Source: a virus. From it: a stretch of DNA of 25,906 bases. Below are positions 1 to 16,377 of the stretch, piece after piece (positions within the stretch are counted from its first letter, which is position 1; every line of letters starts with the position of its first letter). The notes beneath the pieces were generated by a model, which saw only the letters and a list, made by a program, of their open reading frames with translations, was not told the DNA's origin and did no database searches. Made by a program: the position numbers and the translations under genes. The stretch is taken from positions 1-25,906 of the IMG/VR virus record IMGVR_UViG_3300017991_001369, one strand, 5' to 3'.

Positions 1-275
1 ACCCGAGACGCAGCAAACAATTCATCTGGCATTTGGTAGCAATTACCGGAAGAGATGGTAACGGCTTTGTCAGCATTGTCAGCGTCCTTCGCTATATACG
101 CAGTGTTCTTGACGTAAGAAACGAATTTGAGCGTCAGGTCGGGGCCACTTGCGGCAGTTACATGAAGCAATGCCCCGGCTCTTTCGCCCAGTTGAAATGC
201 TCGGGCTTTTTCGGGCGTATCAGTGACGTTAATCGTTTCAATTGTCGCCCCAGTGCGGGCAATAGGCGCAACCAT
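1..275 (-). CDS. Partial gene running off the left edge; small virion-type protein of unknown function
   Basis: Reading leftward from an ATG at 275, the frame stays open for 91 codons to the window edge, so only the N-terminus is present. The protein begins MVAPIARTGATIE and reads as a beta-rich, alanine/threonine-rich sequence without a recognisable motif. The start is well supported: the ATG shares one base with the stop of the upstream 1272-aa gene (TAATG), and a GGAGG Shine-Dalgarno lies 8 bases upstream inside that gene. Its position at the end of the probable ejection-protein cassette suggests another virion protein, but this is inference from context only. The C-terminus is not in the window. 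Confidence 0.8.
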   Translation of the reverse strand, partial: MVAPIARTGATIETINVTDTPEKARAFQLGERAGALLHVTAASGPDLTLKFVSYVKNTAYIAKDADNADKAVTISSGNCYQMPDELFAASR

Positions 276-3200
276 TATGACATCCTCCGGGGGTTCATCA
301 TGTCCATCAGCATTTTAACCTTAGTGGTGTCGTTACTGCGGGGGTTAGCCTGCGGGGGCGGCAACTGACCACCAAACGGCAAATCAATGTCCGTATCGAA
401 CCTTGGCTGGCCCATAGGGGGATTTGGGCCAGACGGACGCTCTTGGGGCAGGGATTGGAACAAGTCCTCAAATCCCGCATTAAGATCATTGGGATCGCCG
501 GGGTCTGGCTCCGGCTCGGCGTTAAGGGCATTGTAGGTGTAAGTCCCAGCACCCGCACCAAGCATTGACAGAATTGATGGGATATACCCGGCAAGGCTCT
601 TAGCATTCTTGAAATCTGGATTGCGAAACAGATTTACAAGCCCTCGGGCGGATTGGTAGACCGGGTCGTAGGGGAATGGGGTCGGGGGCTTAGGCGGCGG
701 GGTGTCAGCCACTTGCTGGTCTACGGCTTCGGCTCCAGCCTGCTGTGCAGCCGCTTGCTGCTCCGCAGCCTGTTGTGCCCGCGACTGCTTGCCTCGCGTC
801 CGCTTGGCTGCCGACTTCTTGGCAGTGGCCTTTTTCGCTTGCTGGGCATCCGGGGCCGCACCGCCCGCTGTGGTAGATGCGCTGGGGTCTGGAACGAATC
901 CATCCGCGTCGGCAGGGGCAGTCTTTGCGCCACCCTTACCTTTACTGGTGGCCGTCTTGGCCTGTCGGCTTTTTCCGGTGGCTTCGCTCAAGACTTGAGC
1001 GGCAGAACGTCGGGGCTTGCGAGCCATAGCGAGATACTCCACAGGGTTATTGGAATCGGGGGATTGGGCTTGAGCGGAGCCAGCCGCAGCACCGCCCGCA
1101 AGGGCGATCAGTCCTGCGATACTTAGCGGCTTGGTGGGATCGGGGAACATCGACCTGCGCTCTTGCGCGGCTTGATCGAGTTCGGCGTTCACATCTTCAA
1201 ACTGGTCTTCTGGGACAAAGTCGCTGCCAGAATCACCTTCTGGCACAAACCCGTCATCAGTAGGTGGCGGCGCGTCTTCCGGCACATAGTCGGCTTCCGC
1301 AACAAACTGGTCATCGTTGACCCCGCCGTCCCCATACTGCTGGCGTTTCGCCAGTGCTTCCTGTTCGGAGGCAAGCAACGACTGCTCGTCATAAAGGTTT
1401 CTTTGGTCAGTGGGCTGCCGCCTGCTTTGAACGTCGGCCTCCATAGCCCTGCGGTACTGATCGCTAGGCTGGAATACTGTGCCGGATGCCCTCTTTGCTC
1501 GGTCAGTGGTTGGCTCAACAGCCTCAAGAATGTTCATCGACGCCTGAACATGAGGCTCCAGCCGCGCCGCCATCCCGGGGTCTGGCAAGTCGAGCAAATC
1601 GAGAATGAATCCCGCCACTTCCCTGGCGGTAGGTCGGCGGGTAACAATCTGCTGGCCTTCGGGGAACTGCATGAATCCCCGCCAGATCGGCATGAGGGAG
1701 TCCAGATTGAGCGGAGCGGCCCTGACTTCGGTCAACGACGCCTCTCGCAACAGACGGTCGCCTCCGCTGGCAGCGGCAGATTTTTTTACGTCACCGCTAG
1801 AATCGAATGCGTCTGACATAGCCGCTGCTGCGCTGTCCACAGCATCAACTGTCTGCCCCGGCCCCCCGAGTTCCCCTACGGAAATGCCGCCATTTCCAGA
1901 GGTTGCCAGCATATCCGGGTCAACGTATTCGTTGACCATGCGGAAGATTTTCTCCCGCATCTTATCAACGTAAGACTTGCCTTCCCGCAAGGCTAGGTCA
2001 TCGTCTCGTTTCTTGGATTTAGCGGTTCGGCCCCCTGAACCAGGAAGCAACTCTTCTTTGACTTCTCTGGGGTCATAGAAGTAGTTGGGGTCTTGCGTTA
2101 AGTCTTCGACCGGGGCTGCTGGGCCTGGGTTTTTCTGTGTCCGCTCCCGTTCCCTTGCAGCCTTGAATTCTGCGTCGATCTCGGCTGGGTCGCGAGCGAA
2201 GCCTGCTGCGGGGCTTTTGTCAGTCAGCCTCGCGGGTTCGTCTGGGCCGAATGACAGGTTCTCCCTCGCGCCGCCGCTCTTCTTGAATTCCTTCTCGGCG
2301 ATCTCTGGCGGGGTTGGGAGGACAACTTCCGTTCTGGTTGCGCGCTCCCGGGGCGGGGCTGCCTTGCCCCGCTTTGTAGCCCTGCGTTGCGCCCGCAGGG
2401 AATCTACCGTAATACCGAGTCGGTTGGCTTCCTCAACGTCTTGCAAAAGAATCCAAGCCAGCCGATTGGGCGCGTCTGGTGGAATGTCTTTGTAGATGCC
2501 GGTGCGACGTTCGGACTGTTCGGCCAGCCGATACTTCTGCCGCGTATCGCTATCTATGTAGTTCCTTAGACGCATCACCTCGGGGAGAGCGTTGCGTCCT
2601 TCGGGAACAAACACATCCCTCGGGGCGGGCATCTGCCGAGAAGACAGATCGCGGTTGTCGATAAAGGAATCTATCTCTGGGTGGGCTTCCATCAATGAGC
2701 CGAGAGCGGAGGTCATCGCCTCGCCCCGGCGGGTGGTCGGGAAGTCCGGGTCATATCGCGCTAGTTCGACATAGGAATCAATGATTTCCTGTGCCTGGGC
2801 TAACGCTTTTGCCGCAGGCTCGGAGAGTTGCTCTATATCCGATGGGGCAATTCTCTCAACGACGTTGGCGTCTGCCTCAAACTCTGGCCTGTATCGAGTT
2901 ATCCTTCTCGTCTCACCAAAGTTTGGATTTGGTTCTACCCCTCCTTCGGGAGGATCGAAAGTAAACTCATCTAAGCGATCTTCGAGAATCTCAAATCGCC
3001 TAACTGGGGCAGTGGGAGCGGCTGTCTCGGAGGGTGCAGTGCTTGCGGCAGGCTGCCTGTCAAAGGCTGCGAGTAGTTCGTCCTCTCGCCTGTTGACTAA
3101 GCCCTTTTTTTCAATGTATTCCCACCAGAGGTCTGTGTTGTCAGCCTGTTCTGCCAACTCGGCCAGCCGCCTACGGTCTTGTTGAGCCTCGTCAATGATG

Positions 3201-4093
3201 CTCTGGCGGGCCATGTTGCGAACGCTATCGTCATCAAGTTGCGCTCGCAGCGTATCGAGAATGGCCTGTTTCTCTTGGATGAGGGCAGGCTTCTCGGCGG
3301 CTGGGGCGGCTTCGATGCGGAAGTAATAGTCAGTGTCGGTCGCGCGAATCGCGCTTTCTATACGACCCCGCATCAACTCGATTTGTTCGCTTACGCGGGG
3401 ATCGACGGACGAACCCCCGCCTTGTGAGCCGCGCTTAGGGCTGCCTTCCATCTCCACCACTGAGCGATAGCCGCGCCTGATTTGTTCCTGGCTCCAGCCT
3501 TCAGGATCGGTCACTACGGAGGTGTTGTCTGGCGAAGCACCCTCTAAGTACACCAACTCGGAATCGTCCGGCACTCTCTCTCGGGTCGCCGCAACGTCCA
3601 CCGACTCAATTGTTTCTAGACCGCCGTCCTCTATTGCTCGCCTCGCGCGCGAGCGGGCGCGCGCTTCCGATGTAGTGTCGGGCGAGAGTGAGGTCGCATC
3701 GCCAAAAACGTCCGCGACGATCTGGGCGTCGGCAGCGTCAAGCGCACCGAGCAGGCGACTCTGAACCTCTGGCGAAGCGTTGGAGAAAGCCAGACCATAT
3801 AGGCGGCTTCCGGCGTCGGGGGCCGCTCGATGCTGCATTGCAGCGGCGAGCAGCGAATCGGCAATCTGCTGGAGGCTACTTGCTTCCTTCACCTTCATTC
3901 GCCGTTCGATGCCTGCCAGCACCGTAGGACGCTCGACGGCAAGACGCGACATCTCTGCGTCTAAGGCAGGGGCTTCGGCAGCGACGAGATCGTCCAAAGT
4001 CGCAAAAGGGCTACCGGGTGGTTGGTCGCCCACACCACCGCGTAAGCGGCGCGACTTTTTGCCGGAAGATTTTCTGCGCCTGCCGCGAGCCAT
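275..4093 (-). CDS. Very large (1272 aa) probable internal virion / DNA-ejection protein
   Basis: I do not recognise a family. The N-terminus is strongly basic (MARGRRRKSSGKKSRR), followed by a long charged, probably helical region to about residue 900. Short F/Y-V-P-E/D motifs recur near residues 490, 935, 948, 957 and 1064. A hydrophobic Ala/Gly segment (about 985-1005, SIAGLIALAGGAAAGSAQA) is followed by a Lys/Ala-rich stretch near 1090-1110 that resembles histone H1-like tails (KKATAKKSAAKRTRGK). A second hydrophobic Gly/Ala segment lies near 1165-1190, ahead of a proline-rich C-terminus. The start follows the upstream stop directly (TAAATG), with GAAGG 8 bases before it. Size, DNA-binding-like tails, membrane-like segments and place after the tail genes fit an ejection protein comparable in position to T7 gp15/gp16, but no homology is visible. 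No lysozyme motif was seen. Confidence 0.85.
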   Translation of the reverse strand: MARGRRRKSSGKKSRRLRGGVGDQPPGSPFATLDDLVAAEAPALDAEMSRLAVERPTVLAGIERRMKVKEASSLQQIADSLLAAAMQHRAAPDAGSRLYGLAFSNASPEVQSRLLGALDAADAQIVADVFGDATSLSPDTTSEARARSRARRAIEDGGLETIESVDVAATRERVPDDSELVYLEGASPDNTSVVTDPEGWSQEQIRRGYRSVVEMEGSPKRGSQGGGSSVDPRVSEQIELMRGRIESAIRATDTDYYFRIEAAPAAEKPALIQEKQAILDTLRAQLDDDSVRNMARQSIIDEAQQDRRRLAELAEQADNTDLWWEYIEKKGLVNRREDELLAAFDRQPAASTAPSETAAPTAPVRRFEILEDRLDEFTFDPPEGGVEPNPNFGETRRITRYRPEFEADANVVERIAPSDIEQLSEPAAKALAQAQEIIDSYVELARYDPDFPTTRRGEAMTSALGSLMEAHPEIDSFIDNRDLSSRQMPAPRDVFVPEGRNALPEVMRLRNYIDSDTRQKYRLAEQSERRTGIYKDIPPDAPNRLAWILLQDVEEANRLGITVDSLRAQRRATKRGKAAPPRERATRTEVVLPTPPEIAEKEFKKSGGARENLSFGPDEPARLTDKSPAAGFARDPAEIDAEFKAARERERTQKNPGPAAPVEDLTQDPNYFYDPREVKEELLPGSGGRTAKSKKRDDDLALREGKSYVDKMREKIFRMVNEYVDPDMLATSGNGGISVGELGGPGQTVDAVDSAAAAMSDAFDSSGDVKKSAAASGGDRLLREASLTEVRAAPLNLDSLMPIWRGFMQFPEGQQIVTRRPTAREVAGFILDLLDLPDPGMAARLEPHVQASMNILEAVEPTTDRAKRASGTVFQPSDQYRRAMEADVQSRRQPTDQRNLYDEQSLLASEQEALAKRQQYGDGGVNDDQFVAEADYVPEDAPPPTDDGFVPEGDSGSDFVPEDQFEDVNAELDQAAQERRSMFPDPTKPLSIAGLIALAGGAAAGSAQAQSPDSNNPVEYLAMARKPRRSAAQVLSEATGKSRQAKTATSKGKGGAKTAPADADGFVPDPSASTTAGGAAPDAQQAKKATAKKSAAKRTRGKQSRAQQAAEQQAAAQQAGAEAVDQQVADTPPPKPPTPFPYDPVYQSARGLVNLFRNPDFKNAKSLAGYIPSILSMLGAGAGTYTYNALNAEPEPDPGDPNDLNAGFEDLFQSLPQERPSGPNPPMGQPRFDTDIDLPFGGQLPPPQANPRSNDTTKVKMLMDMMNPRRMS

Positions 4094-4414
4094 TTACTCG
4101 GCCTTCTTCTTGCGCTTCTTAGGCTCTTTCTCTAGCGGAACCTTGGACATAGCCTTCCGCATCGACCCCTTTTTGAAGTCCTCTTCGGTGACAGGGATGG
4201 GGGCTGGCGATCCTTTGGTTTCGCTATGCAGAGAGGCCAGTTTCTCGGACTCCGATTCCTCCTCTTCTTCTTCGTCTTCATCGTCCATGTCCTCGGGCAT
4301 CTTGCCAGGACGCTTGGCGTTGGACTTCATGTCGGCGAACACTGTTTCCCGCAAGATGCGGTCAACGCAAGAACGCTTGAGGTCACTGAGGTCGATAGGG
4401 AACGACATAGCCAT
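4094..4414 (-). CDS. Small acidic hypothetical protein with a basic C-terminus (106 aa)
   Basis: The protein starts MAMSFPIDLSDLKRS and carries an extreme acidic run near residues 43-56 (DMDDEDEEEEEESESE), then a short linker and a lysine-rich tail (KEPKKRKKKAE). The acidic run comes from a low-complexity GAA/GAG stretch at about 4250-4290. The start has AGGA 7 bases upstream; a second in-frame ATG two codons later is an alternative. Its stop abuts the start of the 1272-aa gene, so the two are probably translationally coupled. The charge pattern suggests a partner or chaperone for a basic protein such as its large neighbour, but that is inference. No family is recognised. Confidence 0.75.
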   Translation of the reverse strand: MAMSFPIDLSDLKRSCVDRILRETVFADMKSNAKRPGKMPEDMDDEDEEEEEESESEKLASLHSETKGSPAPIPVTEEDFKKGSMRKAMSKVPLEKEPKKRKKKAE

Positions 4415-4423
4415 TGGTTTGTC

Positions 4424-4903
4424 CTAACTGAGGATTGATCCGAGAACGCCAAAGAAATTGTTGCCGCGAGACATATCGCCCATTCGTCGGTCTGTCTGAC
4501 GCTGGAGATTGCTGATGAACTCAAAAGCCTTGTCTTTCCGTAGAGCGTTCTGTGATGTCCGCTCTGTCTGGTCGGTGTCGAGCAACAGCCTCCGCAGCCC
4601 ATCCTGCTCCTCCGCAATCGCGGATTGGTAATCGAAGAGAGCCTGCTGATCGTCCATCCGGCGAGCCATTGCTGCGCTGTTCGCACTCGGCGCAGACGCA
4701 AACTGCTGTGCAGCCATCATTCCAGAGCGATATGCTTCGCCCGCACCACCCGCTCGAATTCCTGCTTGCTGTGGCCGATACGCCCGCTGGTTGCCGACGA
4801 AAGCCCTGTTAGCCTCGGCATCGGATTTCTGCTTCCGCAACGATTCGCCGCTGGCGACTATCGGGCCGGAATACGTTGTGGTGAATGAATCGCGCGCGAA
4901 CAT
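4424..4903 (-). CDS. Probable internal virion protein, Gln/Arg-rich and helical (159 aa)
   Basis: The frame is open further upstream, but the upstream extension is Arg/Cys-rich nonsense lying over the preceding gene. The true start is the ATG at 4903, which shares one base with that gene's stop (TAATG). The protein begins MFARDSFTTTYSG, is rich in Gln, Ala, Arg and Ser, appears almost wholly helical, and ends in a short hydrophobic tail (NNFFGVLGSILS). There is no signal peptide or cysteine. Composition and tail resemble those of the preceding glycine-zipper protein. Together they look like a two-gene ejection-protein cassette such as podoviruses carry after their tail genes. The specific function is unknown. 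Confidence 0.8.
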   Translation of the reverse strand: MFARDSFTTTYSGPIVASGESLRKQKSDAEANRAFVGNQRAYRPQQAGIRAGGAGEAYRSGMMAAQQFASAPSANSAAMARRMDDQQALFDYQSAIAEEQDGLRRLLLDTDQTERTSQNALRKDKAFEFISNLQRQTDRRMGDMSRGNNFFGVLGSILS

Positions 4904-5628
4904 TATGCGAATAGCCCTGAGAGAAGATTGGCAGTACCGGAGCCAGCACTGGCTCCGAGAGCGGCACCACCCGGGCCTCCGATCATGCCGCCCAGGAGCG
5001 CGCCGATGCCTGCGCCCGCGCCGCCGTATGTGCCTCCTCGACTCATTCGGGCGGGATTGCCGAACCAACCGGCTCCGTAGCCGCCCGAACCGTCCGCGCC
5101 CCCTCGGTACGCAGTCCAGGCATTCCCCGCCGACGAGAGCAAGCCGCCACCCGCAAGCAAGTTTGCCATGTTGTGGGTGTACTCCAGGCTGGTGTTGCGG
5201 CGTTGTTCATCAAGCCTGTTTCGGATATTGCGAATATCCTCCCGCTTGGACAGATTGATGCCCCTCAAATCGTTCATGTACGACTCGTCCATGCCGTACC
5301 GGCGGGCGGCATCGGCCCGCTGCGAGTAGATGTCGGCACTTCGGGCCTTCTCTGCCTGCTTCTGGTAACCGCGATTAGCCTGTTCCATTTGCTGGAACCG
5401 GGCGTTTCCCCGTTGTTGTGAAAGTGCCTGGGAGTAAGCGTTTTGGGTTCTTGCGCCAGCACCGCCGCCAAATGCTGCGGGCTGGGATGACCCTCGTCCA
5501 TACTGACGCTGCTCGGCGGCTCGATATGGGCCTTGCGTTTGAATCCTCGACGCACCACCAATGGGCGTAGTTCCTCTGCCCAAAGGCCGGATATTGCCCA
5601 TCCCGGGGACGCTCACTGCTGGCCGCAT
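4903..5628 (-). CDS. Probable internal virion / ejection protein with C-terminal glycine zipper (241 aa)
   Basis: Residues 1-75 are Gly/Gln/Arg-rich and probably flexible. Residues about 75-155 form a charged helical region rich in Gln, Arg and Ala (for example QKQAEKARSADIYSQRADAA). The last 40 residues hold a textbook glycine-zipper segment (GAGIGALLGGMIGG, about 204-218) with small residues every four positions, of the kind that inserts into membranes, then a second Gly/Ala run and LLSGLFA at the end. The start has AGGTG 5 bases upstream. Known podovirus ejection proteins (T7 gp14-gp16, P22 gp7/gp16/gp20) leave the capsid and help form a DNA conduit through the host envelope; the composition and position here match such a role, but no direct homology is claimed. 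Confidence 0.8.
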   Translation of the reverse strand: MRPAVSVPGMGNIRPLGRGTTPIGGASRIQTQGPYRAAEQRQYGRGSSQPAAFGGGAGARTQNAYSQALSQQRGNARFQQMEQANRGYQKQAEKARSADIYSQRADAARRYGMDESYMNDLRGINLSKREDIRNIRNRLDEQRRNTSLEYTHNMANLLAGGGLLSSAGNAWTAYRGGADGSGGYGAGWFGNPARMSRGGTYGGAGAGIGALLGGMIGGPGGAALGASAGSGTANLLSGLFA

Positions 5629-5687: not shown

Positions 5688-6050
5688 TTACCCGAAGACG
5701 ATGACTGAAACTTGCTGCAAGGTGCCCAGATCGCCGTAGATTCGCACAACGAACTCATCTATGTTCTTGTCGGGGTGAATTACCGCCGACATCTGCCCAG
5801 GTGCTAACACTGTCACAATAGGCATATATTCATTGTCGATGTTGCAGGGTTGCAGGAATCTGATGCGGTAATCCCCTGGGCCAATCGCCTCGGCTTCGAC
5901 CGACGCAATGTTGTGGGAGCGAATGATGGAGCCATCTGCCGAGAATGCCAACGATGCAATCAGAGAAGGGCAGTTGAGGGAGTCGCGAATCAACGCTTCG
6001 CGCTCGTCAATCCTCTGCTTCTCTCCCGGATCGTATGTAATAATGCTCAT
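5688..6050 (-). CDS. Small accessory tail protein with a fibre-tip-like beta domain (120 aa)
   Basis: The N-terminal 35 residues are charged (MSIITYDPGEKQRIDEREAL). The remaining part follows the layout of the common beta-sandwich found at phage fibre tips: an opening S-H-N-I-A-S-V strand, a G-x-Y-R-I-R-F strand, a D/N-x-x-Y turn (NIDNEYMPIV), and closing F-V-V-R-I-Y and V-S-V-I-V-F-G strands. The start overlaps the stop of the upstream 82-aa gene by four bases (ATGA). A 59-base gap with no visible gene separates its stop from the next gene. The fold assignment rests on pattern only. It probably acts on the virion surface near the tail, given its neighbours. Confidence 0.7.
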   Translation of the reverse strand: MSIITYDPGEKQRIDEREALIRDSLNCPSLIASLAFSADGSIIRSHNIASVEAEAIGPGDYRIRFLQPCNIDNEYMPIVTVLAPGQMSAVIHPDKNIDEFVVRIYGDLGTLQQVSVIVFG

Positions 6051-6295
6051 TTTTGATATGTTTCCGCATACGATTGGGGGGATAATCCGTAACCATCTGG
6101 CTCAGAGAAATCGGCCCGCCAAGCATCCCGATACTTCATGTCAGTCGGAAGTTCGGAGCGGTCGATAATCCGGTACGGCACACCTTCATCGACTACCAGT
6201 TGGGCTAATTGATGCTCGTCAGTGATTCCGGCTTGCCCTACTGGCGTCACTGAAATGCCACCGTTCTGCTGGGGAGCGATTATGCAACGAGGCAT
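6047..6295 (-). CDS. Small conserved phage protein of the P-x-R-x-x-x-x-S-x-L-P-x-D-x-x-x-R-x-A-W type (82 aa)
   Basis: The middle and C-terminal part reads VPYRIIDRSELPTDMKYRDAW. This matches a pattern I recall from many small phage proteins encoded among tail or fibre genes: a short beta strand, then S/D-D/E-L-P-x-D, then an R-x-A-W. Its biochemical role is not established. The start has AGGG 7 bases upstream and lies 9 bases after the stop of the 329-aa fibre-like gene. The stop overlaps the next start (ATGA), indicating coupled translation with the 120-aa protein. No membrane segment or cysteine pair is present. Confidence 0.72.
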   Translation of the reverse strand: MPRCIIAPQQNGGISVTPVGQAGITDEHQLAQLVVDEGVPYRIIDRSELPTDMKYRDAWRADFSEPDGYGLSPQSYAETYQK

Positions 6296-6304
6296 GGCAG
6301 TGCC

Positions 6305-7294
6305 CTATTGATAGACTGCTAAAGCCACATACAGTGGATTGTAAGCAGCGTTGATAGCACCCTGGTTGGCATCATGGGCATGGTAACCAAAACCGCCCAC
6401 AAAGTATGAAGGCGTCATGTTGGTGGCGAACAGGGACATTCCAGTTCCGAAATTGTTAGGTTGGGCGTAATGCTGATTACAGACAACGCAGTACGCATTA
6501 TTGGGCAATGCCTGGGCGAATGTGATGCGGAAAGCACCCAAACTCGCATTGCCTTCGGCAGTGTATACGGCATTGAATGTGCTGATGGATTGTTGTGCAG
6601 ACATATCAAATGCCGCAAACGCCACAAGGCGGCTGTCTGCTGGGGCTGGCCCGGGTGATGGCGACCCGTCGAAAAACCCGTACACATCTTGGACGGTGTT
6701 GTCGCCTAATCGGATTGTCTTCTTTTGCAGATTCCGCAGATTGATTGTGAGTTCGGTGCCTGCGGGAGTCTCGTCTACGGATGCCGACAGAAATCTGGGA
6801 GTCTCTGTGCTGGCAAGAATGGGCAACGCTTCTAGCAGGGTTGTGGAGGGATCAATCCGCAGATGTCGGCCTGTTTGTTTTGAGATGGACAGGTTGATCT
6901 TCGATACTGCGGCATTGGACTCGACGTTGTTTTCTACGTCGATATACCTCCCGCTCTGCACCCGAGGCTCGGATAAAGGTGAGTTTGTGGTGACCGGCTG
7001 GCTGTCCCGATAAGGGTGATCTCTGCCTTCCCCTGCATATCTGCCCGGGTTGCTGGATAGTCTCTGCTGGAACGGAACAGTAGGCGAATAGTCCAAATTA
7101 GTCAGATCGTATTTCCGGCTGTCTCTGGTAATAAGCCGCAGTTTCCGGCGAGGGGTGGCGTCGGTTGCGTCCCGCCCCTGCGACAGGGTGGCCGTCGCCG
7201 CATTGCCGATTGCGTTGGCAAGCGTCTGCGCGGCATTCGCGGACAGACCGCCCTCAATGAGAGTCTGGACTAAGTCGCCACTAACTGTTGGCAT
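6305..7294 (-). CDS. Probable tail fibre / receptor-contact protein (329 aa)
   Basis: Residues 1-45 form an alanine-rich N-terminal helix (NAAQTLANAIGNAATATL), a likely trimerising or docking element. The middle is rich in short beta segments. From about residue 220 the sequence follows a phage fibre-tip pattern: AFAAFDMSAQQSISTFNAVY, then GAFRITFAQALPNNAYCVV, and a final Gly/His/Tyr-rich part (VGGFGYHAHDANQG) with a hydrophobic last strand (PLYVALAVYQ). Its start overlaps the end of the tail-nozzle gene by 14 bases. I infer a fibre or appendage attached to the nozzle. It lacks a chaperone domain, enzyme motif or collagen-like repeats. Host receptor is unknown. Confidence 0.72.
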   Translation of the reverse strand: MPTVSGDLVQTLIEGGLSANAAQTLANAIGNAATATLSQGRDATDATPRRKLRLITRDSRKYDLTNLDYSPTVPFQQRLSSNPGRYAGEGRDHPYRDSQPVTTNSPLSEPRVQSGRYIDVENNVESNAAVSKINLSISKQTGRHLRIDPSTTLLEALPILASTETPRFLSASVDETPAGTELTINLRNLQKKTIRLGDNTVQDVYGFFDGSPSPGPAPADSRLVAFAAFDMSAQQSISTFNAVYTAEGNASLGAFRITFAQALPNNAYCVVCNQHYAQPNNFGTGMSLFATNMTPSYFVGGFGYHAHDANQGAINAAYNPLYVALAVYQ

Positions 7295-10200
7295 CGACTC
7301 CCTCGACTTCCAATCCGTACAGAACAGTCTTGCTTGGGGCGAGATCGTCGGCGTCCGCGCTTCTAGCCTGAGAACTAAGTTCGATGGCGATGTGCCTGTC
7401 AGAACTGGACATATCTGTCAGCGAACGTCCCGCAAATCGAGCCATCGCAACGCCAGTAGCGGGGCCAAACGGAGTTCTGCTGGAAACCATATCCAGGGTT
7501 GTCTGCGACGAATTCGCGTCATGCACAAAGCCGGTGCCCCTATCTCGCCGCATGGCATTGGGCCTCGGGCTTGTGTCGTTGTTGTAATACTCCCGCAGGA
7601 TAAGCGTAGTGGAGGTTTCGGTTGGGCGGTAAGCGACTGACACTGACCGGTCTTGCTGTGAGTCCCCGCCCCGGGTATTGCCGTCGTTGTTCAACTCCAT
7701 TGAGCCGGTGCGAAGCGTCCAGGGGACGGTGGCTCGCGAGTAAACGACAACTTCTGCGGGAGGATTACCCTGTTGTTCGAGAGTAGAGGGAACCCTGGCG
7801 ACACTGTAGCCTAGCGCATTATCTGCCGGATTGCCGGTTGGGGATGGCTCGATAATCAGCGGTTCGTTCGCGATGAAGACTCCAAAAATGTCAATGCCGC
7901 CATAGCCGTAGCCGCCGTCGATAATCTGAATTTGCGTAACCTTGCCTTTTCTGACAATTGCCTGGAACTTCGCAGTTCCACTACCGTTCAGCGTACTGAC
8001 CGATACGGCGGGTGGATCGACATAACCACTGCCACCGTACTGGACAACAACTTGCACAATGTCCCGAAACGCTGTGTCCCGCAGCCCTTCCAAGCGATGG
8101 AGGTGGCCGTCAATCGAGGCGTAGAGGGTCTTATCCGGCTCCAATTCGTCCCGAAAGTCAGTAGCGCAAGTGAGCGCAGTGGGGTAAGTTTCTGTCCACC
8201 AAACCTTGTTGCGTATGTGGTAGCAAAGGGCGAGGTCGGGGTATTCGCGGGTAGTGTCATTGGTTACCACAAATACCCGCAGTATTGCAGATTGTGCATC
8301 GACCTTCAGGAAGAACGCATCTCTGTATTGGAGTTGCAGAAGGTTGTCATCGAAGAAGTTGCGGATAGGCTCGCTAAGTGTCTCGATGGCACCGCCCGGG
8401 GTCATGCTGTAGACCCCTCGCTCATCAACGGCATAGAGCAAATCGTCATAGATGTCCCAGGCGTTTTGGGACAACGCACCGCGATGAGCGACGAGATTGA
8501 TGGTCGCGTCGATTGAGGGGTCAGTGTTATAGGTCAGGCTATAGCAATGACTGTTCTGCATTGCCAGCAGGAGATGCCCAAACGGAACTAATGCCGTCAA
8601 GTAGTCGGTAGCCCGCAAGTTGGTCTGGATGGGCAATTCGTTCACATCTGGGCAAGACTCAAATTCGTCGTATTCAGAGAAAAAGATTGTGTTCGCGTCT
8701 TTGCCTGAACTGGAAACTCCGTACCAAAGCCTGTCTTGCCAAGCAACGGCCACACCCATATCGGAACGGGGAATTCCAAACCGGAAAGCATTCACCGCAC
8801 CATTCGGTAGAACTACGGGCAACGCCGCATAGTTAGAGCGATTGGGGTCAAAAAGTTCTTCGTCAGATAACTCATCTCGTCCACCGTTGCTGATGGTGAT
8901 GTTGCCATCGTTGATCTCGCCGTACACATCAGTGCGATAGTAGACGAGTGATTGGTCTGCGGACGTTCGGAAGAACTCCACATAATCGGCGCGGCTCGGC
9001 GGGATAACCCCGTCCAACGTCCAGTTGAGGCGGCTGGCCCTCCCGCTTCCGTTAGCGTCGGCCTCGACGGAGGCGAACGGCGACAGGTCTGAGTAGGTAA
9101 CCGGCCTTGTCATATCCCGGATGGTGCATGGCTTATCGGTGCCCGGTGACAGCAGGGGTCGTTCCAGTGTGAGAATGTTGCCTTGGACGCTCTTGATTCT
9201 CGCCATGTGTTCGATATTTTCTGCGTCCGTAATCTGCATTCCCGGCTTGATGCCGGTTGCGTCAGACACAGTGATTCTTCGCGAATTGTCGAGCGGATTG
9301 CTGGTGGTGTAGGTGGGCCTCGATACCACTGTTCTGCTGTAATCAGCAAACCGATAGGCGCATTCATAAGAACCCTGCATCGTTCCCCGCAGAACAGGGA
9401 TCAGTTTCGCAGGGGTAACATCGGTGTATAAGACGGTGTCGCTAGCAAAACCGTCGCCGCCATCCAAGATGGCAACCGAGGTCACCGTCCCACCGCTGAC
9501 GGTAGCCCCGAGCCGCAGGCCATACCCACTGCCGCCCCTGAACAGTATTTGAGGCTCGCGGTAGTAATCTCTGCCGCCACTCAAAATCGTCACACTACCG
9601 ATGCGTTCGCCTGCGACTGACGCTGCCAGTTGCACTGTGGTGAACTTCCAAACGTCGCTGTTTGTAAATCCGTTTCCGACTGCGTTTGGGTCAGTAAGGA
9701 ACGGTGGTGCTTTTTGCCGCAGACGAACGTAGCCGACTTCGTTCGCGGCAGTCCAACCGCTGCCAGAAATCACCACCTTGGGGGCGTCTTCTGCGGGGCT
9801 TGTGATGACAGCACCCGGCATAAGCAGTGAGCCAGCAGTGCCCGCCGTATCAACCTCTTCCGCTTGCAGATAAAAGTCGGTGTATGAGGCTTCCACATCG
9901 GTGCCGCCGCGAACTTCGTTGAACCAGCCAGCCGCATTCCGAAAGTATTTCCTGCTCCCGGTAACTCCAAATATCCAAGTGGAGTCTAGTCTGCCGCCTC
10001 GATCTACAACCGTATAACCCGCAGCATTGAACTGGTAAAAGCGAATGGCAAACTTGGCACCTTTTTCGAGGAAACTGCCGGGGTTGATGACTTCAATTGT
10101 GCCTGCTGCTATCCCAATAGTGTCGTTGTTCGCAGCATCGCGGAAATCAACAATGGGCTGGGCCAAGTTATACCCGTTCGGTTGATCTGTTCCCACATGG

Positions 10201-12017
10201 CCCTTGCCCCACCATCTGGTGTATGAATCCTGTACGGTTGATGATAGTTGGTAAAGATTGTCTCCATTGTCATTCCTTACAGTATCGGTTGTTAGCAATC
10301 TGCGGTCTTGGCCGCTCTGCGGTGTGTATCGGTTGCCCCAAGCAATCCCCAGCGTAAGGTCGGGGCGACCGTCCGTATATTTTTCCTCGTCTATTTTGTG
10401 ACTTCCGAGAGTCCAAGATTCGGGGCAGGGTGCGAGGTAAATGCGAATGACCGGCAACTGTGATTCCGCCTCTAGGGCATACGCTGAACCGTCAACCTTT
10501 CTTGCGGGTTCCATCGTAATGTCGGCGTAAGGGCGATCATTGTCATCAAACTGTACTAACGCATTCTTGACTGTCCAGTTAGAAAAATTAGTCAGCCCGT
10601 TTTCTGGCCCCGTCAGGGCGTAATAGGAAATGTATGTGTAATCGGGGAAATAGTAATCCCCAGCGATGCGAATGGCCCGGTTGTTGCCTAGCCAATCATC
10701 GGGAGTTACGCCAATAGTTATCTGCTGGCTTTTAGCAAATATGTAGTTGTATGCCGACGCCCCAAGACCCCAAAACTTGTCGCGATTCGCATACCACATA
10801 TATGTGAATCGGGTTGGTATGTTGTTGATTGGGGGGGTGTATGTGTTCTCAAAGTAGTCGTTGCTGGTGTACCAACCCGACCGCTTGTACCCAAACTTCA
10901 CCGGAGTCGCGGTGTTGATGATGTTCGTAGTGAACACTGAATCAGTCGCGAAACCGGCGGGGTCTACGTTGCCGGTTTTGTACGATGCCGACAGTGGCGC
11001 GAACTTGAACTGCGCGAAGGCGTCTGTCTGCACAACTGCGTTATTGGCTTCGTAGTGCAGCGGGATAAGGGCAGTGTACACTCCGGTTACGGGCGAAAAC
11101 GAAACGTCAACGCCAAATGTGGTCAAGCCTTCGCGATATGCGATCTGCGGGGCTTGGCCTGGGTCATGGAACCCATGTGTACTGCCAGCCGAATAAGAAC
11201 CATTGAAGTCATTTGAGAGTTGCCCACCGTCGCTTTCGCGAAACCCATAGACTGCGGGGCTTTGCTCTAAATTTCCAATCGCGGAAAATCCGACGCCCAG
11301 TTGTTCGTCGCTGACTGCGATTTCGGGGACTTCGCGGTAGTTGCTACCGCCATCGACAATATCAATTGCGACGATAGACCCACCTTGAACGACGGCCTTG
11401 AGTTTTGCAGGACGGTCTGGGTCGCCGCCTGACACAGTGATCTTCGGCGGGGTGTAGTAAGAAGTGCCGCTGTTGACAACATCTACGCGCTCAATGAACC
11501 ATCCATCCCCACTTGGAGTCACCGTTGGGGCAACCGTAGGGGCAGCCAGACCCATCGGGACTGCCTGAGCGGTGTTGTCAACTATGGTGATCGGCGGTAT
11601 GTCGTTTCCGAAAAACACATAGATGCTGCCATGCCGGTCTTCGCAGAATGAAGGGCGACCTTGGGGCGTTTGCGTTGTGCTGTAAACAGACAAATCGACT
11701 GATGATGTTAACGGCCCAGCATCAACGCGGAATCTTCTGAACAGCCGGTATCCGCTTGCGGTGTCGCCTGACTCGTCCGTAAGGTTTGCTGAAGGCCGGA
11801 ACGAATAAAGAATGTCGAACTCGTTCGGCCCCCGCGATTGGCGGTACACCGCTTCGTATGTTTCGCCGTAAGTGGTGTACTTGGGGGTCAAGCCGGGGCG
11901 GGGGGTCAGTTCTCCCAAGTTGCGGATTTGCAGGTTGTTCTGCACCCGCATCACACCAGGGGGAAGCGAGAACTGGCTTGCCGCAGTAACAAGACCCTTC
12001 CAATCGCTGGTCTTCAT
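7281..12017 (-). CDS. Tail nozzle protein (tail tubular protein B-like), unusually large (1578 aa)
   Basis: The N-terminus (SLPPGVMRVQNNLQIRNLGE followed by L-T-P-R-P-G) is typical of podovirus nozzle proteins of the T7 gp12 type. The propeller-like part is at about 1045-1290, with AWQDRLWYGVSSSG, IFFSEYDEFE, LLLAMQNSHCYSLTY and a W-W-T-E-T-Y-P strand. A large insertion separates these ends and holds three copies of a G-G-x-x-Y-x-x-P / G-x-V-x-x-I-x-I-x-D-G-G module (about 174-236, 802-860, 1320-1380) and one D-A-T-G-I module (about 911-955). T7 gp12 has 794 residues, so this protein is roughly double. The start lies 3 bases after the adaptor gene's stop. It should form the distal end of the short tail, joined to the adaptor and carrying fibres. 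Confidence 0.88.
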   Translation of the reverse strand: MKTSDWKGLVTAASQFSLPPGVMRVQNNLQIRNLGELTPRPGLTPKYTTYGETYEAVYRQSRGPNEFDILYSFRPSANLTDESGDTASGYRLFRRFRVDAGPLTSSVDLSVYSTTQTPQGRPSFCEDRHGSIYVFFGNDIPPITIVDNTAQAVPMGLAAPTVAPTVTPSGDGWFIERVDVVNSGTSYYTPPKITVSGGDPDRPAKLKAVVQGGSIVAIDIVDGGSNYREVPEIAVSDEQLGVGFSAIGNLEQSPAVYGFRESDGGQLSNDFNGSYSAGSTHGFHDPGQAPQIAYREGLTTFGVDVSFSPVTGVYTALIPLHYEANNAVVQTDAFAQFKFAPLSASYKTGNVDPAGFATDSVFTTNIINTATPVKFGYKRSGWYTSNDYFENTYTPPINNIPTRFTYMWYANRDKFWGLGASAYNYIFAKSQQITIGVTPDDWLGNNRAIRIAGDYYFPDYTYISYYALTGPENGLTNFSNWTVKNALVQFDDNDRPYADITMEPARKVDGSAYALEAESQLPVIRIYLAPCPESWTLGSHKIDEEKYTDGRPDLTLGIAWGNRYTPQSGQDRRLLTTDTVRNDNGDNLYQLSSTVQDSYTRWWGKGHVGTDQPNGYNLAQPIVDFRDAANNDTIGIAAGTIEVINPGSFLEKGAKFAIRFYQFNAAGYTVVDRGGRLDSTWIFGVTGSRKYFRNAAGWFNEVRGGTDVEASYTDFYLQAEEVDTAGTAGSLLMPGAVITSPAEDAPKVVISGSGWTAANEVGYVRLRQKAPPFLTDPNAVGNGFTNSDVWKFTTVQLAASVAGERIGSVTILSGGRDYYREPQILFRGGSGYGLRLGATVSGGTVTSVAILDGGDGFASDTVLYTDVTPAKLIPVLRGTMQGSYECAYRFADYSRTVVSRPTYTTSNPLDNSRRITVSDATGIKPGMQITDAENIEHMARIKSVQGNILTLERPLLSPGTDKPCTIRDMTRPVTYSDLSPFASVEADANGSGRASRLNWTLDGVIPPSRADYVEFFRTSADQSLVYYRTDVYGEINDGNITISNGGRDELSDEELFDPNRSNYAALPVVLPNGAVNAFRFGIPRSDMGVAVAWQDRLWYGVSSSGKDANTIFFSEYDEFESCPDVNELPIQTNLRATDYLTALVPFGHLLLAMQNSHCYSLTYNTDPSIDATINLVAHRGALSQNAWDIYDDLLYAVDERGVYSMTPGGAIETLSEPIRNFFDDNLLQLQYRDAFFLKVDAQSAILRVFVVTNDTTREYPDLALCYHIRNKVWWTETYPTALTCATDFRDELEPDKTLYASIDGHLHRLEGLRDTAFRDIVQVVVQYGGSGYVDPPAVSVSTLNGSGTAKFQAIVRKGKVTQIQIIDGGYGYGGIDIFGVFIANEPLIIEPSPTGNPADNALGYSVARVPSTLEQQGNPPAEVVVYSRATVPWTLRTGSMELNNDGNTRGGDSQQDRSVSVAYRPTETSTTLILREYYNNDTSPRPNAMRRDRGTGFVHDANSSQTTLDMVSSRTPFGPATGVAMARFAGRSLTDMSSSDRHIAIELSSQARSADADDLAPSKTVLYGLEVEGVDANS

Positions 12018-12020
12018 GGA

Positions 12021-13160
12021 TCACTCTTGGTCGGGCAGTTGAGACGAATAGTAGCCCATCGTTCGCGGAGTGGGATAGCCGATGGGGCTTGGCTGTCCGC
12101 TCAAGGGGGACACAACGTCCCGCTCCATCGCCAGCCGCAGATCGCGATTGAACAACTGCACCACATCTGCCCCAGGCTTCCCGGCAAGCCTCGCGTACCA
12201 CATCTCCGCTGCCGAAAGAACAGCGGTGTACATCTGCGGGCTACAGTCGATCTTGTCTGTGATGGTGTATTTTAATTGCAAATTGAACCCGTATGTCAGC
12301 CCCGGGGGCTTGAAATACAAAGTAGTGGCACTCACAACCTCTGTGATCTCCGCTTCGTCTTGAAAGGGGGTTAGTGACCCGAGCGGTTCGGGGTAATCGG
12401 TGTCAGTGCCTAATCGAATAATGCTGCCCACCATATCAGGACTCATGGCATCTTGGTTGCTGGCACCTTGTAAACCAGAATGTCCGAATAGGGTGGTGGC
12501 AAACTGTGGTTCATAGCCGATGTACTTAATCATCTTCGGCTGGTAACGGTAGGTGTAGTGAATCACCGTCGAGTTGGTAGGAACTCCAACGAAACGCACT
12601 TGGTAGCGGTCAGGGTTCACATCTGACCGCATAATGGTGTAGTAGAAGGGTTCGCCAGACCCCCGAGTGTTCACCTCAAGACGTTGCCATTCCTGCGGCG
12701 TTATGTAGCAGTGCAGCGTACCGACTGTGTCGGTGACTAAGGCGTCGATGTCTTTGAGGTCGGGCGGCAGATCGTAGTAAGTCTGTACCAATACCGGTAC
12801 AGTCGAACCGTCTTTTTTGGCGGCAGTATCCAGGGTTATCTGGGTGCCGTTGATGGAGGTGACGCGAACGGGGTGAGAAAAGTATTCCGGGGAGATTTCC
12901 AGCATCCTGCCGACCACAATGCCTGTTGCGTCAGCCACAAAGATGGTAGCGTTGCCGTTAGTAATGGTGGCGGTGGTGGAAATCTGCTGCGTAACGAATG
13001 ACCCGGTCTTGGTGTGCCATAGCCAGTTCTTGGCATGGAGAACTTCCCGCGCCCCATGAATGACTGCTTTGGTGATAGCAGTATGCTGCCCGTCTTGGGC
13101 ACCGCCGCCAGTAGCCGTAAGCAGATAATCGGCAACGTCTTGAGCGGTGTGGATAATCAT
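12021..13160 (-). CDS. Head-tail adaptor (tail tubular protein A-like), with an inserted beta domain (379 aa)
   Basis: The N-terminal part (DVADYLLTATGGGA, then KAVIHGAREVLHAKNWLWH) has the helical layout of podovirus adaptors such as T7 gp11, where aromatic W-x-W-H residues follow a long helix. A beta module at about 66-114 (TIFVADATGIVVG and TSINGTQITL) is inserted, followed by Y-Y-D-L-P-P-D-L and a second beta region with YQVRFVGVPTNST. A C-terminal helix holds AAEMWYARLAGKPGAD and FNRDLRLAMERD. T7 gp11 has 196 residues, so this version is enlarged. It should bind beneath the portal and above the nozzle. The start overlaps the stop of the 182-aa gene (ATGA), with AAGG 4 bases upstream; spacing is short but the coupling supports it. 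Confidence 0.85.
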   Translation of the reverse strand: MIIHTAQDVADYLLTATGGGAQDGQHTAITKAVIHGAREVLHAKNWLWHTKTGSFVTQQISTTATITNGNATIFVADATGIVVGRMLEISPEYFSHPVRVTSINGTQITLDTAAKKDGSTVPVLVQTYYDLPPDLKDIDALVTDTVGTLHCYITPQEWQRLEVNTRGSGEPFYYTIMRSDVNPDRYQVRFVGVPTNSTVIHYTYRYQPKMIKYIGYEPQFATTLFGHSGLQGASNQDAMSPDMVGSIIRLGTDTDYPEPLGSLTPFQDEAEITEVVSATTLYFKPPGLTYGFNLQLKYTITDKIDCSPQMYTAVLSAAEMWYARLAGKPGADVVQLFNRDLRLAMERDVVSPLSGQPSPIGYPTPRTMGYYSSQLPDQE

Positions 13161-13705
13161 GTTGCCTTGTTTCGCTTGTGGCGGGGCGCATGTTTCTCAA
13201 CGATCATTTCTCGCAACTCACCTTCTTTCCTTCCCGGGTGTGCCTTCTTGTATTTCTTCAGGGCTTTCTGCATGAGCCTTTCAGAAAGTGGCACTGGTGG
13301 CGGCGGGGGTATTGGCTCGGCAGTGTGTTCGACAATGCCGGTGACATTGAGGTTCCGCTGCTGGGCTACCTTTTTGATGTCGCTGGCCGAGTCAATCCAG
13401 GCAGCCGGGTCGGCTGGGCCTCGCTTGTCGGCCAAGCCGGATTGGTAGTATTTCCCAGAAGTGTTAATGCCAGCCTGCTTGGCGGCATTAAGAATCCTCT
13501 TCCTGTTGGCTGGCGATAGTTCGCTCATCCACTCCCCGTTGTACCGTCCTTGCATTACGGCTCGGTCTGTTCCTCGCACCCCGGGAGGTGCCTGCAAGGC
13601 GCACATTTCTGCGAACATCTCGGATTGGCCTTGCTGGATCATCTTGAGAAAGTGATCGACTGCTGCCTTTCCGGCTTCTCTGACGCTGGTTGGTACTGCT
13701 GGCAT
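13157..13705 (-). CDS. Hypothetical protein between portal and tail adaptor (182 aa)
   Basis: The protein starts MPAVPTSVREAGKAAVDHF and seems mostly helical to about residue 125. A proline run (PIPPPPPVP, about 131-139) links to a basic C-terminal helix (LMQKALKKYKKAHPGRKEGE) and a final R-H-K-R-N-K tail. No family is recognised. Its first 218 bases lie inside the 3' part of the HNH nuclease frame. A GAAGGG element is about 20 bases upstream, further than usual for a ribosome site, and the frame is closed by TGA not far above the ATG, so no earlier ATG exists. Its place between portal and adaptor suggests a head-completion or packaging role, which is inference. Confidence 0.75.
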   Translation of the reverse strand: MPAVPTSVREAGKAAVDHFLKMIQQGQSEMFAEMCALQAPPGVRGTDRAVMQGRYNGEWMSELSPANRKRILNAAKQAGINTSGKYYQSGLADKRGPADPAAWIDSASDIKKVAQQRNLNVTGIVEHTAEPIPPPPPVPLSERLMQKALKKYKKAHPGRKEGELREMIVEKHAPRHKRNKAT

Positions 13706-13967
13706 GGCGGCTAAGGTATTGCATGGCCCTTCGGGCAGAAGGAAGCGAATCTCCGATCATCCCCAATCCGGTATTGCATTTCTGACACAGCACCCCGCGT
13801 ATCAGTCCGGTCTTATGGCAGTGATCCACATGGGTCGCCTGCCTGGAACGACAGATAGGGCATACACCTTTGGTTTTGCGTTTCAAGCGGTCAAACTGCG
13901 AAATCGTCAACCCATATCGTTGCTTCAGATTAGATGCCCGCTTGCGAAGGCGTTTGTCTGAAGACAT
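13488..13967 (-). CDS. HNH nuclease of the phage recombination endonuclease VII family
   Basis: Residues 20-88 show the endonuclease VII pattern: Y-G-L-T-I-S-Q-F, C36-x2-C39, the VDHCHKTGLIRGVLC core with D48-H49 and H51, C61-x2-C64-N65, then a helix (SARRAMQYLSRH). The four cysteines should bind a structural zinc; the DH/H/N residues form the metal-dependent active site. Such enzymes resolve branched DNA during phage packaging or act as free-standing homing nucleases. The domain ends at residue 88, almost exactly where the next gene begins at 13705. The remaining 71 residues are Arg/Ser-rich and look like an out-of-frame reading of that gene. There is no clear Shine-Dalgarno before the ATG, which lies 9 bases after the portal stop. 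Confidence 0.82.
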   Translation of the reverse strand: MSSDKRLRKRASNLKQRYGLTISQFDRLKRKTKGVCPICRSRQATHVDHCHKTGLIRGVLCQKCNTGLGMIGDSLPSARRAMQYLSRHASSTNQRQRSRKGSSRSLSQDDPARPIRDVRRNVRLAGTSRGARNRPSRNARTVQRGVDERTIASQQEEDS

Positions 13968-13976
13968 AGGTGAGTT

Positions 13977-16070
13977 TTATTGAGGGGGCGGCTGCAACTC
14001 ACTTGGTATCTGGTCTGCGGGCGGCGGCTCCATGCCTTCTGGTAAAGGCAACTCTTCTAACGGTGGGCCACCCGCCCCCGCCGCCGCCTGCTCTGGCGGG
14101 GGGGACAGCCCGGGCGGCGCGGCTGGGGGCGTAGGCGGCGGGAGTGGTGGAGGAGGCGGCAGCAAGTACGGGGTGGCGTCAATGTCCAACGAGTCAGCCC
14201 AATCGTTGATAAGGGCATTCATCGGATCGACGAACCCTGACATAGCAAGCGGTTGCAGAAGCGGGCCAAGCGTTTGGACGGCCATCTGCATCTGCTCAAC
14301 GCGAGTAGCCTTGTTTGGCTTGCGGGCAGAACCAGCCTCAACGCGATACAAGAAGTCTCTAGTTAGGCTAACAATGTCCATGTTGCCTACGCTCTTATCC
14401 CAGGCAGCGGAGGCTAGGGGGCCAAGGACAGGGACAACGTCTTCGCCCGTCAACAGCCACCGGCAGGCAAGGGCTTCTCGGCGGGCCAGAAGACTCATGC
14501 AGTCCTCGACCTCGTTCGCCATGTTGTCGGGCCTAATCGAAATGTTCTCTTGCTTTATTTGCGCCTCTGCTGCACTTCTGTACTGTGCCCTGGTAAGCCC
14601 ATAAGCCAGTTCTGACAAGCCGGTGCGTTTGTCGAAAAGGTCGAATACGGCTTGGATAATGTCGTAGAGGTCTTTGTTGACCTGGGGCATTTGGAATACA
14701 GACAGCACATCTTGGACAGATCGCCCAAGCATTTCACTCAATTCGACAATCTTGAACCCACCCTGCGTAGGTGCCAGGATTTGGTCTTTGAGGTCTTGGT
14801 CGGCGGCTTTCGATACGCCAACCATCGTTTCGCAAGAAGTGGCAACGCGGGTAGCCAGAAACGACATAGCCCAATTCAGAAACCGCAATTCAGGAATCGC
14901 GGGGCGTATGTGGCTAATCGGCCAAGCGTAGTTAGGCTTGGTGTGGAACGACAGCATGGTGAACGGCCAGCCCCTCGGGTCGGCGTAGTAGGGGATGGGC
15001 CATGCTGCCCTAACTAGCAGACTGTCGGGGATACCCGATTCTTCGCCAACTGGTTCATCGAGAACCTCTGGCGGGATATTCAGCGGGTATTCGACGCCTT
15101 CGCAGATAACCAGATAGACGTAATCGCCCAACGTATCGAACACACCCTTGTTTTCTTTGGGTGCGTCCATGAGCCGGTCGCCAGCCCCGCACTTCGACCA
15201 CACCTTATAGATTGTGACGAGGTCGTTCGTCTGGCCTTTGTCCCTTTTGTTGCGGCCCCTGCGCGGCTCGCTGTCGCACTTAATGGTGGTCGAGGAGTTC
15301 AGGTGCTTCTTGAGGTCGGCTTCTGGAACACCGTACTCCAGGGCGACTTCCCGCAGCGGGCGAACCTGTCGCCGCGCACACCACAACATATCGTCCATGT
15401 TGTCAAAATCGGGATCAATCAACAGGTTGTCTACGGTGTCATAGAAAGACCCGATCATTCTCACTGGAGGGGTGCTGCCGTTACCCGAAGTTTCCAGCGT
15501 CAACAACTCTGTCCAGAAGACCCCGGCACCCTTGACCAGTGCTTCGTTGCAGACCTTGCGGGCCTGCGTCTTCAGGTCTAACTCAACAGGAGTCCAGTTG
15601 AGATACGCCTGCATCAATTCGGCAGCAACCCGCCTGTCCATCTTGGAATCTTGCTGTTGCTGCAATACCGTCATGATCTGCTGCTGCTGGGGCGTAACAG
15701 CCTGCGGATTCATGGGGTCGGGAGGCGGCACACCGAGGACTACGGGGTCAATCTCGGGATGCTCCATCACCGTCACCGTCCTAACGGGATTGCGGTGATA
15801 GATTACTGAGCCGAAGATTTCGACTAACTCAAATACCTTATTTACTTGCATACGGAAGGCGGGCGGCGAAATGCTCGCGTTGTACCCGCGCTCGCCGCGC
15901 GAATACTGATCCTTCCACATGAAGTTGTGTTCACCGTCAAAGAAGTTTGCGGCTTCTTTGGCGTCTTCCGTAAAAGGCTTTTTGTACTTGATCGCGGCTT
16001 CGATCTTCTTGATCCAAGTCGAGACGATCTGCCTTAGCGGATTACTTGGCGGCAACTTGCTCGCGGGCAC
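13977..16070 (-). CDS. Portal protein with GTG start and proline-rich C-terminal tail (697 aa)
   Basis: The portal forms the dodecameric ring at the capsid vertex through which DNA is packaged and ejected. Features typical of podovirus portals: an N-terminal helical region (WIKKIEAAIKYKKPFTEDAK), G-E-H-N-F-M-W-K, a wing domain with VWSKCGAGDRLM, and a stem/crown region with FQMPQVNKDLYDIIQAVFDL and ARREALACRWLL. A Gln-rich loop (QQQQIMTVLQQQQ) lies near residues 125-140. The last 62 residues contain about 26 prolines. The start is GTG at 16070, supported by GGAGG 9 bases upstream; no other good start precedes the conserved region. It overlaps the 111-aa gene by 29 bases. Confidence 0.88.
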   Translation of the reverse strand: MPASKLPPSNPLRQIVSTWIKKIEAAIKYKKPFTEDAKEAANFFDGEHNFMWKDQYSRGERGYNASISPPAFRMQVNKVFELVEIFGSVIYHRNPVRTVTVMEHPEIDPVVLGVPPPDPMNPQAVTPQQQQIMTVLQQQQDSKMDRRVAAELMQAYLNWTPVELDLKTQARKVCNEALVKGAGVFWTELLTLETSGNGSTPPVRMIGSFYDTVDNLLIDPDFDNMDDMLWCARRQVRPLREVALEYGVPEADLKKHLNSSTTIKCDSEPRRGRNKRDKGQTNDLVTIYKVWSKCGAGDRLMDAPKENKGVFDTLGDYVYLVICEGVEYPLNIPPEVLDEPVGEESGIPDSLLVRAAWPIPYYADPRGWPFTMLSFHTKPNYAWPISHIRPAIPELRFLNWAMSFLATRVATSCETMVGVSKAADQDLKDQILAPTQGGFKIVELSEMLGRSVQDVLSVFQMPQVNKDLYDIIQAVFDLFDKRTGLSELAYGLTRAQYRSAAEAQIKQENISIRPDNMANEVEDCMSLLARREALACRWLLTGEDVVPVLGPLASAAWDKSVGNMDIVSLTRDFLYRVEAGSARKPNKATRVEQMQMAVQTLGPLLQPLAMSGFVDPMNALINDWADSLDIDATPYLLPPPPPLPPPTPPAAPPGLSPPPEQAAAGAGGPPLEELPLPEGMEPPPADQIPSELQPPPQ

Positions 16071-16377
16071 TGGCTCTTACCTCCGCAGCCTTCTGCTTTT
16101 TCGCCATCGCGTTCTTAGTCGTTTCGGTGAAATCCCATACGCCAAGTTGATCCCAGCCATTGTCGAGTTTGATGCCTGGGTCATCGCGGTGGTGGACGCT
16201 GGGTCGCTCCACCCAGCCCGCAGTGGGAGTAAAAGTAAGAATCTGGATGGTGCTGTCGCCGGGTTCTTTGATAACCCACCCTATACATGGGCTAGAAAAT
16301 GTGTGTTGATCCAGGGAAAAGAGGACAACATCGCCCAGATTTGGCTTGGGCATTCGCCAGTTCGCAGTTTCACTCAT
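16042..16377 (-). CDS. Small conserved phage protein between terminase and portal (111 aa)
   Basis: The N-terminal two thirds look like a compact beta barrel: PNLGDVVLFSLDQ, CIGWVIKE, STIQILTFTPTAGW and a closing L-G-V-W-D-F. This layout (P-x-x-G-D-x-V, a V-x-L/F-T-P strand, a final G-x-W) recurs in small phage proteins encoded beside structural genes; their function is not established. A lysine/alanine-rich helix forms the C-terminus (KKQKAAEVRASAREQ). The start overlaps the end of the terminase by 8 bases, and the stop lies inside the portal start region, so all three are probably translated as a coupled unit. Gene size and context suggest a packaging or head-joining accessory role, which is inference. 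Confidence 0.78.
   Translation of the reverse strand: MSETANWRMPKPNLGDVVLFSLDQHTFSSPCIGWVIKEPGDSTIQILTFTPTAGWVERPSVHHRDDPGIKLDNGWDQLGVWDFTETTKNAMAKKQKAAEVRASAREQVAAK

Follow-up and report, generated by a model that had tools for sequence, protein, structure and literature searches.

Four genes in the viral contig IMGVR_UViG_3300017991_001369, located at positions 5628-275 of the minus strand, probably make up an operon for internal-virion (ejection) proteins in an uncultured short-tailed phage, without sequence relation to the known sets. At 25.9 kb (25,906 nucleotides; this whole stretch of DNA is referred to as the window), this viral record carries all its main genes on the minus strand. 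The four genes follow one another downstream of the adaptor, nozzle-like and fibre genes, and encode F1, F2, F3 and a giant open reading frame (ORF) in which two genes, F4 and F5, seem to have been fused. The ejection reading is favoured because the gene order is kept group-wide, because the layout is that of phages SU10, P22 and LUZ24, whose internal proteins are proven or particle-associated, and because the Gly-rich C-terminus of F1 resembles those of P22 gp7, SU10 gp22 and LUZ24 gp53. In its layout and its style the cassette thus appears to resemble an ejection set, and we do not claim membership in a known family. A sequence-only reading of this DNA had already proposed an ejection cassette, possibly an unrelated or highly diverged machine. 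The conserved order, the layout match and the lack of any family or profile match support this idea in part, but its histone-like and charge-partner details did not hold.

The terminase (TerL) of the window has relatives in 57 uncultured viral loci; none was found in the bacterial genomes searched, so that no host could be assigned. Queries with the TerL, portal, capsid, adaptor, giant, F2-type and 1133-aa proteins found either no relatives among isolate phages or only remote terminase and portal matches. Some 18 distinct uncultured contigs keep the order nozzle, fibre, F1, F2, F3 and giant, and in profile searches the order nozzle, fibre, F1, F2, F3, F4 and F5 was fixed in all the non-divergent contigs. 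In the three divergent contigs F2 is still followed by F3 and by a giant (of 1223, 1397 and 2300 aa). F2 is present in every cassette-bearing member of the group, these three included; the gene caller had merged it into another frame in L080 and L088, both of which contain the F2 frame. The giant is conserved only by place and style, whereas the other three genes are conserved as proteins. The group adds three small families (F1 to F3) and a conserved protein of about 1150 aa without a database match. Of all the parts of short-tailed phages, ejection proteins are the hardest to recognise, since their divergence puts them out of reach of sequence detection.

F1 (4903..5628, minus strand; 241 aa) has a Gly-rich tail that ends in ANLLSGLFA. 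The strong glycine zipper previously noticed in this protein is indeed present at residues 205-229 (4942..5016, minus strand), where seven glycines stand at exact i+4 spacing, which was reached in 0 of 300 shuffles. The F1 family has 17 distinct members in the group. The other members carry i+4 glycine chains of 1-5, and about half of them end just past the coiled core, so that the zipper is lineage-specific. AlphaFold predicted, with low confidence, a long helix in F1 (residues 57-159) and in F2 (residues 76-158). A paralogous origin of F1 and F2 was considered and rejected (hhalign probability 3.4%).

F2 (4424..4903, minus strand; 159 aa) is predicted to be all-helical and ends in FFGVLGSILS. 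Its start was reassigned to the ATG at 4903, and not the TTG at 5068, because this ATG overlaps F1 (TAATG) and because the resulting N-terminus, MFxxxxFxxTYxGP, is conserved in relatives. The four consecutive genes described earlier stand, with the start of the second one corrected. F3 (4094..4414, minus strand; 106 aa) consists of a conserved, near-neutral head (LSDLKxS), an acidic middle (-12 in 35 aa) and a basic tail (+7). It had been described as very acidic, which is true of its middle, but its net charge is only -4. The giant, which had been taken as its basic partner, is acidic overall (net charge -42, with a weak positive charge, +7, only in the last 250 residues), and the idea of a charge-matched pair was therefore rejected.

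The small proteins come directly after the fibre gene and have several fibre-related genes nearby, and F3, being small, conserved and acidic in its middle, is assembly-helper-like. All this would suit assembly factors or tail accessories (fibre chaperones, tail completion), with only the large proteins entering the virion, which we nevertheless consider unlikely. F1 and F2 are helical, Ala/Gln/Gly-rich and have hydrophobic ends, i.e., they are similar to the gp7 type and unlike fibre proteins, and the F1-F2-F3-F4 order is stable, in contrast to the shifting positions of the fibre-related genes (82 and 120 aa).

If the cassette is an ejection operon, the helical F1 and F2 and the large, mostly low-complexity F4/F5 would enter the head close to the portal during procapsid assembly, and F3 might be an assembly helper or a minor component. 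Upon infection, the proteins would exit via the portal, adaptor and nozzle ahead of the DNA. F1 and F2 would then insert their Gly-rich or hydrophobic C-termini, and their long helices could associate as a conduit across the envelope, which F4/F5 may line or extend. The analysis itself shows the gene order and its conservation, the sequence features, the lack of homology and the common C-terminal motif, whereas virion location, ejection, membrane insertion and each step of this mechanism are inferred.

The giant ORF and the basic N-termini

The giant ORF (275..4093, minus strand; 1272 aa) exists as described in the sequence-only reading, and its two hydrophobic Gly/Ala segments (residues 989-1009 and 1166-1187), its F-V-P-E repeats and its Lys/Ala-rich stretch (residues 1023-1120) are all present. 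It does not, however, look like a single gene, but like F4 (residues 1-1022) fused to an F5-like part (residues 1023-1272), with the join near residue 1023. In relatives two adjacent genes stand in its place, e.g., 968 + 285 aa or 855 + 417 aa. Furthermore, residue 1023 is a Met preceded by GGAG 9 nt upstream, and the sequence that follows, MARKPRRS, resembles the start of the second gene of the relatives; a comparable upstream site is found at 4 of the 96 internal in-frame ATGs of the giant. The F4-like part (1028..4093, minus strand) starts with a basic stretch, MARGRRRKSSGKKSRR, and contains three FVPE motifs, one YVPE motif and a hydrophobic segment at nt 1067-1129. The F5-like part (275..1027, minus strand; 250 aa) begins at the internal ATG at 1027 and contains the Lys/Ala-rich stretch, FVPD and a hydrophobic segment at nt 533-598. 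The "histone-like tail" would hence be no special feature of the giant, but come from a separate gene, K/A/Q-rich and of low complexity, that has been fused to F4 in this contig. A search for the F4/F5 fusion in another contig found no such locus, and the join in the window may be a true fusion or an error.

The giant carries five [FY]VP[ED] motifs (0.04 expected). FVPE repeats as a conserved motif of the group were rejected, as they are absent from the giants of relatives and found only in this contig. The 55.8-kb contig G001, whose overlapping proteins are 100% identical to those of the window, breaks off where the FVPE repeats of the giant lie (residue 949).

F4 varies from 180 to 2300 aa in the group, and F4/F5 are long, low-complexity and fast-evolving proteins, partly Lys/Ala-rich and without a conserved enzymatic domain. 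Proteins of this kind could be host-takeover or DNA-protecting effectors, injected with the DNA and acting outside the conduit. We regard this as quite unlikely: no catalytic or polyvalent domain was found in Pfam, and F4 has a C-terminal motif in common with F1 and F2. No Pfam match, to a transglycosylase domain or otherwise, was found in the giant.

The basic starts of F4/F5 are resembled by the basic patch at the start of F0 (MMGRGRGRPRP; 23335-24297, minus strand; 320 aa), which ends in GPLSGLMN and is a possible further internal virion protein. In contig L081, F4 (15446-13437) and F5 (13433-12000), both on the minus strand, have identical first 13 residues, MGRGSRRPPTPEV. Together with the F0 start, these identical starts might represent a shared N-terminal signal. 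Basic N-termini such as those of F4/F5 and F0 could also bind DNA, as would be expected if F1, F2, F3 and F4 were scaffold-like or DNA-packing proteins that stay in the head and are not ejected. Such a role is most improbable, given that a separate acidic scaffold-like gene (20500-21579) already lies before the capsid gene, and that the post-nozzle place matches the ejection genes of SU10, P22 and LUZ24.

The C-terminal hydrophobic motif

The unrelated proteins F1, F2, F4 and F0 have in common a short hydrophobic C-terminal motif (LGGLI, LSGLF, LGSLM), which was defined as [LIMVF][GSA][GSA][LIM] within the last residues. At the extreme C-terminus it is found in 13 of the 17 F1, 10 of the 18 F2 and 8 of the 19 F4 members, with about 0.2 expected in each case from composition shuffles. 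In a survey of 39 gene families with at least four members each, 28 of the 40 members of F1, F2 and one F4 family carried the motif, compared with 3 of 279 in the other 36 families, although these group counts are partly post hoc, since the motif was defined after the F1 and F2 tails had been viewed. The giant of the window ends in MNPRRMS, without the motif. The main other family with a motif-like end is a protein of about 335 aa (L079:553-1572 and L120:7961-8953, both minus strand; L125:12160-13161), with similar ends such as NWGLGGIV and DWGLGGVI.

In isolate phages the motif was observed in 5 of 22 ejection proteins and in 1 of 40 other virion proteins, a small independent check (T7, Sf6, epsilon15, N4, SU10 and P22) in which Sf6 and P22 are related and from which a T7 gene 9 fragment was left out. 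In LUZ24 and BPP-1 it was also seen in one scaffold and in one tail-side protein, so that it is not exclusive to ejection proteins. The motif may act in entry, in docking close to the portal or in assembling the conduit. A simple entry signal is weakened as an explanation because, in P22, gp7 and gp20 reportedly use their N-terminal parts to get into heads (PMC8402733). A tentative and rather doubtful proposal is that the motif is a shared docking tag of F1, F2, F4 and F0, which would bring cargo to the portal or inner capsid, or ejected proteins into one conduit. The similar ends of P22 gp7, Sf6 gp11/gp12, SU10 gp20/gp22 and LUZ24 gp53 would then mark ejection proteins in general in phages without an ordered internal core. 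The cargo-loading peptides of encapsulins, which have the same HK97 shell fold, are likewise a short C-terminal motif (consensus SDGSLGIGSLKRS; PMC8346489), of which the LGSLF/LGGLM ends are reminiscent, by resemblance only. If it is a real docking signal, the motif would bear on the sorting or assembly of internal proteins, which is poorly understood even in P22; as a homology-free tell-tale, it could help to annotate ejection genes in uncultured phages.

Neighbouring genes in the window and in related contigs

The neighbouring genes of the window described here are on the minus strand. The major capsid gene (19335-20480) matches the PHROG major head protein (E 7e-9), TerL (16370-18064) is 25% identical to Arthrobacter phage terminases, and the portal (13977-16070) has a weak SU10-type match. 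The adaptor-like protein (12021-13160) matches PF24175 SU10_adaptor with E 1.7e-4, i.e., under the curated cut-off. The nozzle-like protein of 1578 aa (7281-12017), in the tail tube B position, was named by its position, and a PDB search gave no match. It is followed by a fibre-like protein of 329 aa (6305-7294), whose family has 20 members in the group and sits after the nozzle wherever one contig piece holds both genes. Between this gene and F1 lies a fibre-related protein of 120 aa (5688-6050), which has the same weak PHROG matches as the fibre C-terminus, and an 82-aa gene (6047-6295) has relatives elsewhere within the fibre regions of related contigs; these two are mobile fibre accessories. 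Between the portal and the adaptor, an ORF of 159 aa (13488-13967) contains a full Endonuclease_7 domain (PF02945, E 2.7e-20) and overlaps a conserved 182-aa gene (13157-13705) by more than 200 bases; it is probably a homing or recombination endonuclease. The end of the contig cuts a conserved protein of about 114 aa, the start of which is at 3-275; blastp matches were found in L081, L082, L084 and L085, and in related contigs it often comes after the giants.

Downstream of the cassette, and outside the window, a strongly conserved protein of 1115-1175 aa is common to group members (G001, L079:10447-13848, minus strand, with relatives in L080, L081, L082, L083, L086 and L092; E 1e-111 to 5e-257). 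It has no explanatory Pfam, PHROG or NCBIfam family and no isolate relative, and is a candidate for a further internal virion protein. Its assignment to the polyvalent-domain proteins was dropped, as there was no Pfam match. In addition, the phage (G001, L078:12333-13856, plus strand) encodes a DUF2201/VWA metallopeptidase-like protein (PF13203, E 2.6e-24), and CobS/CobT-like genes are annotated in the Microcystis phage Mae-Yong1326-1, a distant relative.

Comparison with known ejection systems

Several observations weigh against an ejection operon. F1 to F3 have no match in Pfam, PHROGs, NCBIfam or PDB, and hhalign of F1, F2, F3 and the 1133-aa family against virion proteins of T7, Sf6, epsilon15, N4 and SU10 gave probabilities below 2%. 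The zipper is not conserved within the F1 family. The remote-homology and structure-prediction check proposed earlier thus gave no related family and, for F1 and F2, only the long helices, mostly single ones in models of low confidence (mean predicted local distance difference test score, pLDDT, 58). No strong transmembrane segment was found: the best 19-residue hydropathy (KD19) was 1.30 in F1, 0.44 in F2 and 1.48 in the giant; T7 gp14 scored 1.31 and Sf6 gp11 1.28. Finally, Pfam revealed no peptidoglycan-hydrolase domain in the cassette, although P22 is also without one.

The cassette had been likened to T7 gp13-gp16 without visible similarity. The T7 genes encode internal virion proteins that follow the tail genes and run from small to giant, as here, and the hhalign values confirm the lack of similarity. 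However, T7 gp14-16 have neither the zipper nor the C-terminal motif, and the layout and zipper fit P22, SU10 and LUZ24 better. In SU10 (Kuravirus), gp20-gp24 lie behind the nozzle gene gp17 and are ordered, as in the cassette, roughly from small to giant (260, 350, 322, 551 and 1473 aa). These proteins are present in virions and gone after genome release, and transglycosylase activity is reported for gp20 (PMC9509320). SU10 gp21 and gp22 have Gly-rich C-termini like F1, and gp22 carries a 6-glycine zipper, but there is no sequence or profile similarity to the cassette, in which no transglycosylase domain was found. The LUZ24 particle proteins gp53-gp50, whose order and sizes are not identical to those of the cassette, resemble it in layout and style: gp53 has an 11-glycine zipper and ends in VGGLLF, gp52 ends in GILSKLFGG, and proteins of 505 and 1055 aa follow. 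Outside the set of F1, SU10 gp22, LUZ24 gp53 and the likewise Gly-rich P22 gp7 and Sf6 gp11, none of the virion proteins checked had a glycine chain of at least six.

The C-terminal end of P22 gp7 (229 aa), IGGGIGLLGSLF, is Gly-rich in the style of F1, and that of Sf6 gp11 is alike. The gp7-type end can be written as L-[GS]-S-L-F; F1 ends in NLLSGLFA, and 13 of the 17 F1 members end in this style, a low-complexity likeness that need not mean kinship. The P22 operon gp7/gp20/gp16 (Sf6 gp11-gp13) runs from a small protein to larger ones, as does the cassette, which shows no profile similarity to it (Sf6 homologues) and has the extra F2 and F3 and the very variable F4/F5. Ejection genes are described as an operon that leads from a protein of about 200 aa to a larger ORF, often matched by size and synteny and not by sequence, and gp15/gp16 are reported to be variable in size and fast-evolving (PMC8954989). 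The cassette is likewise clustered behind the tail genes, with a protein of about 200 aa first and larger ORFs after it, and F4/F5 show the same variability as gp15/gp16.

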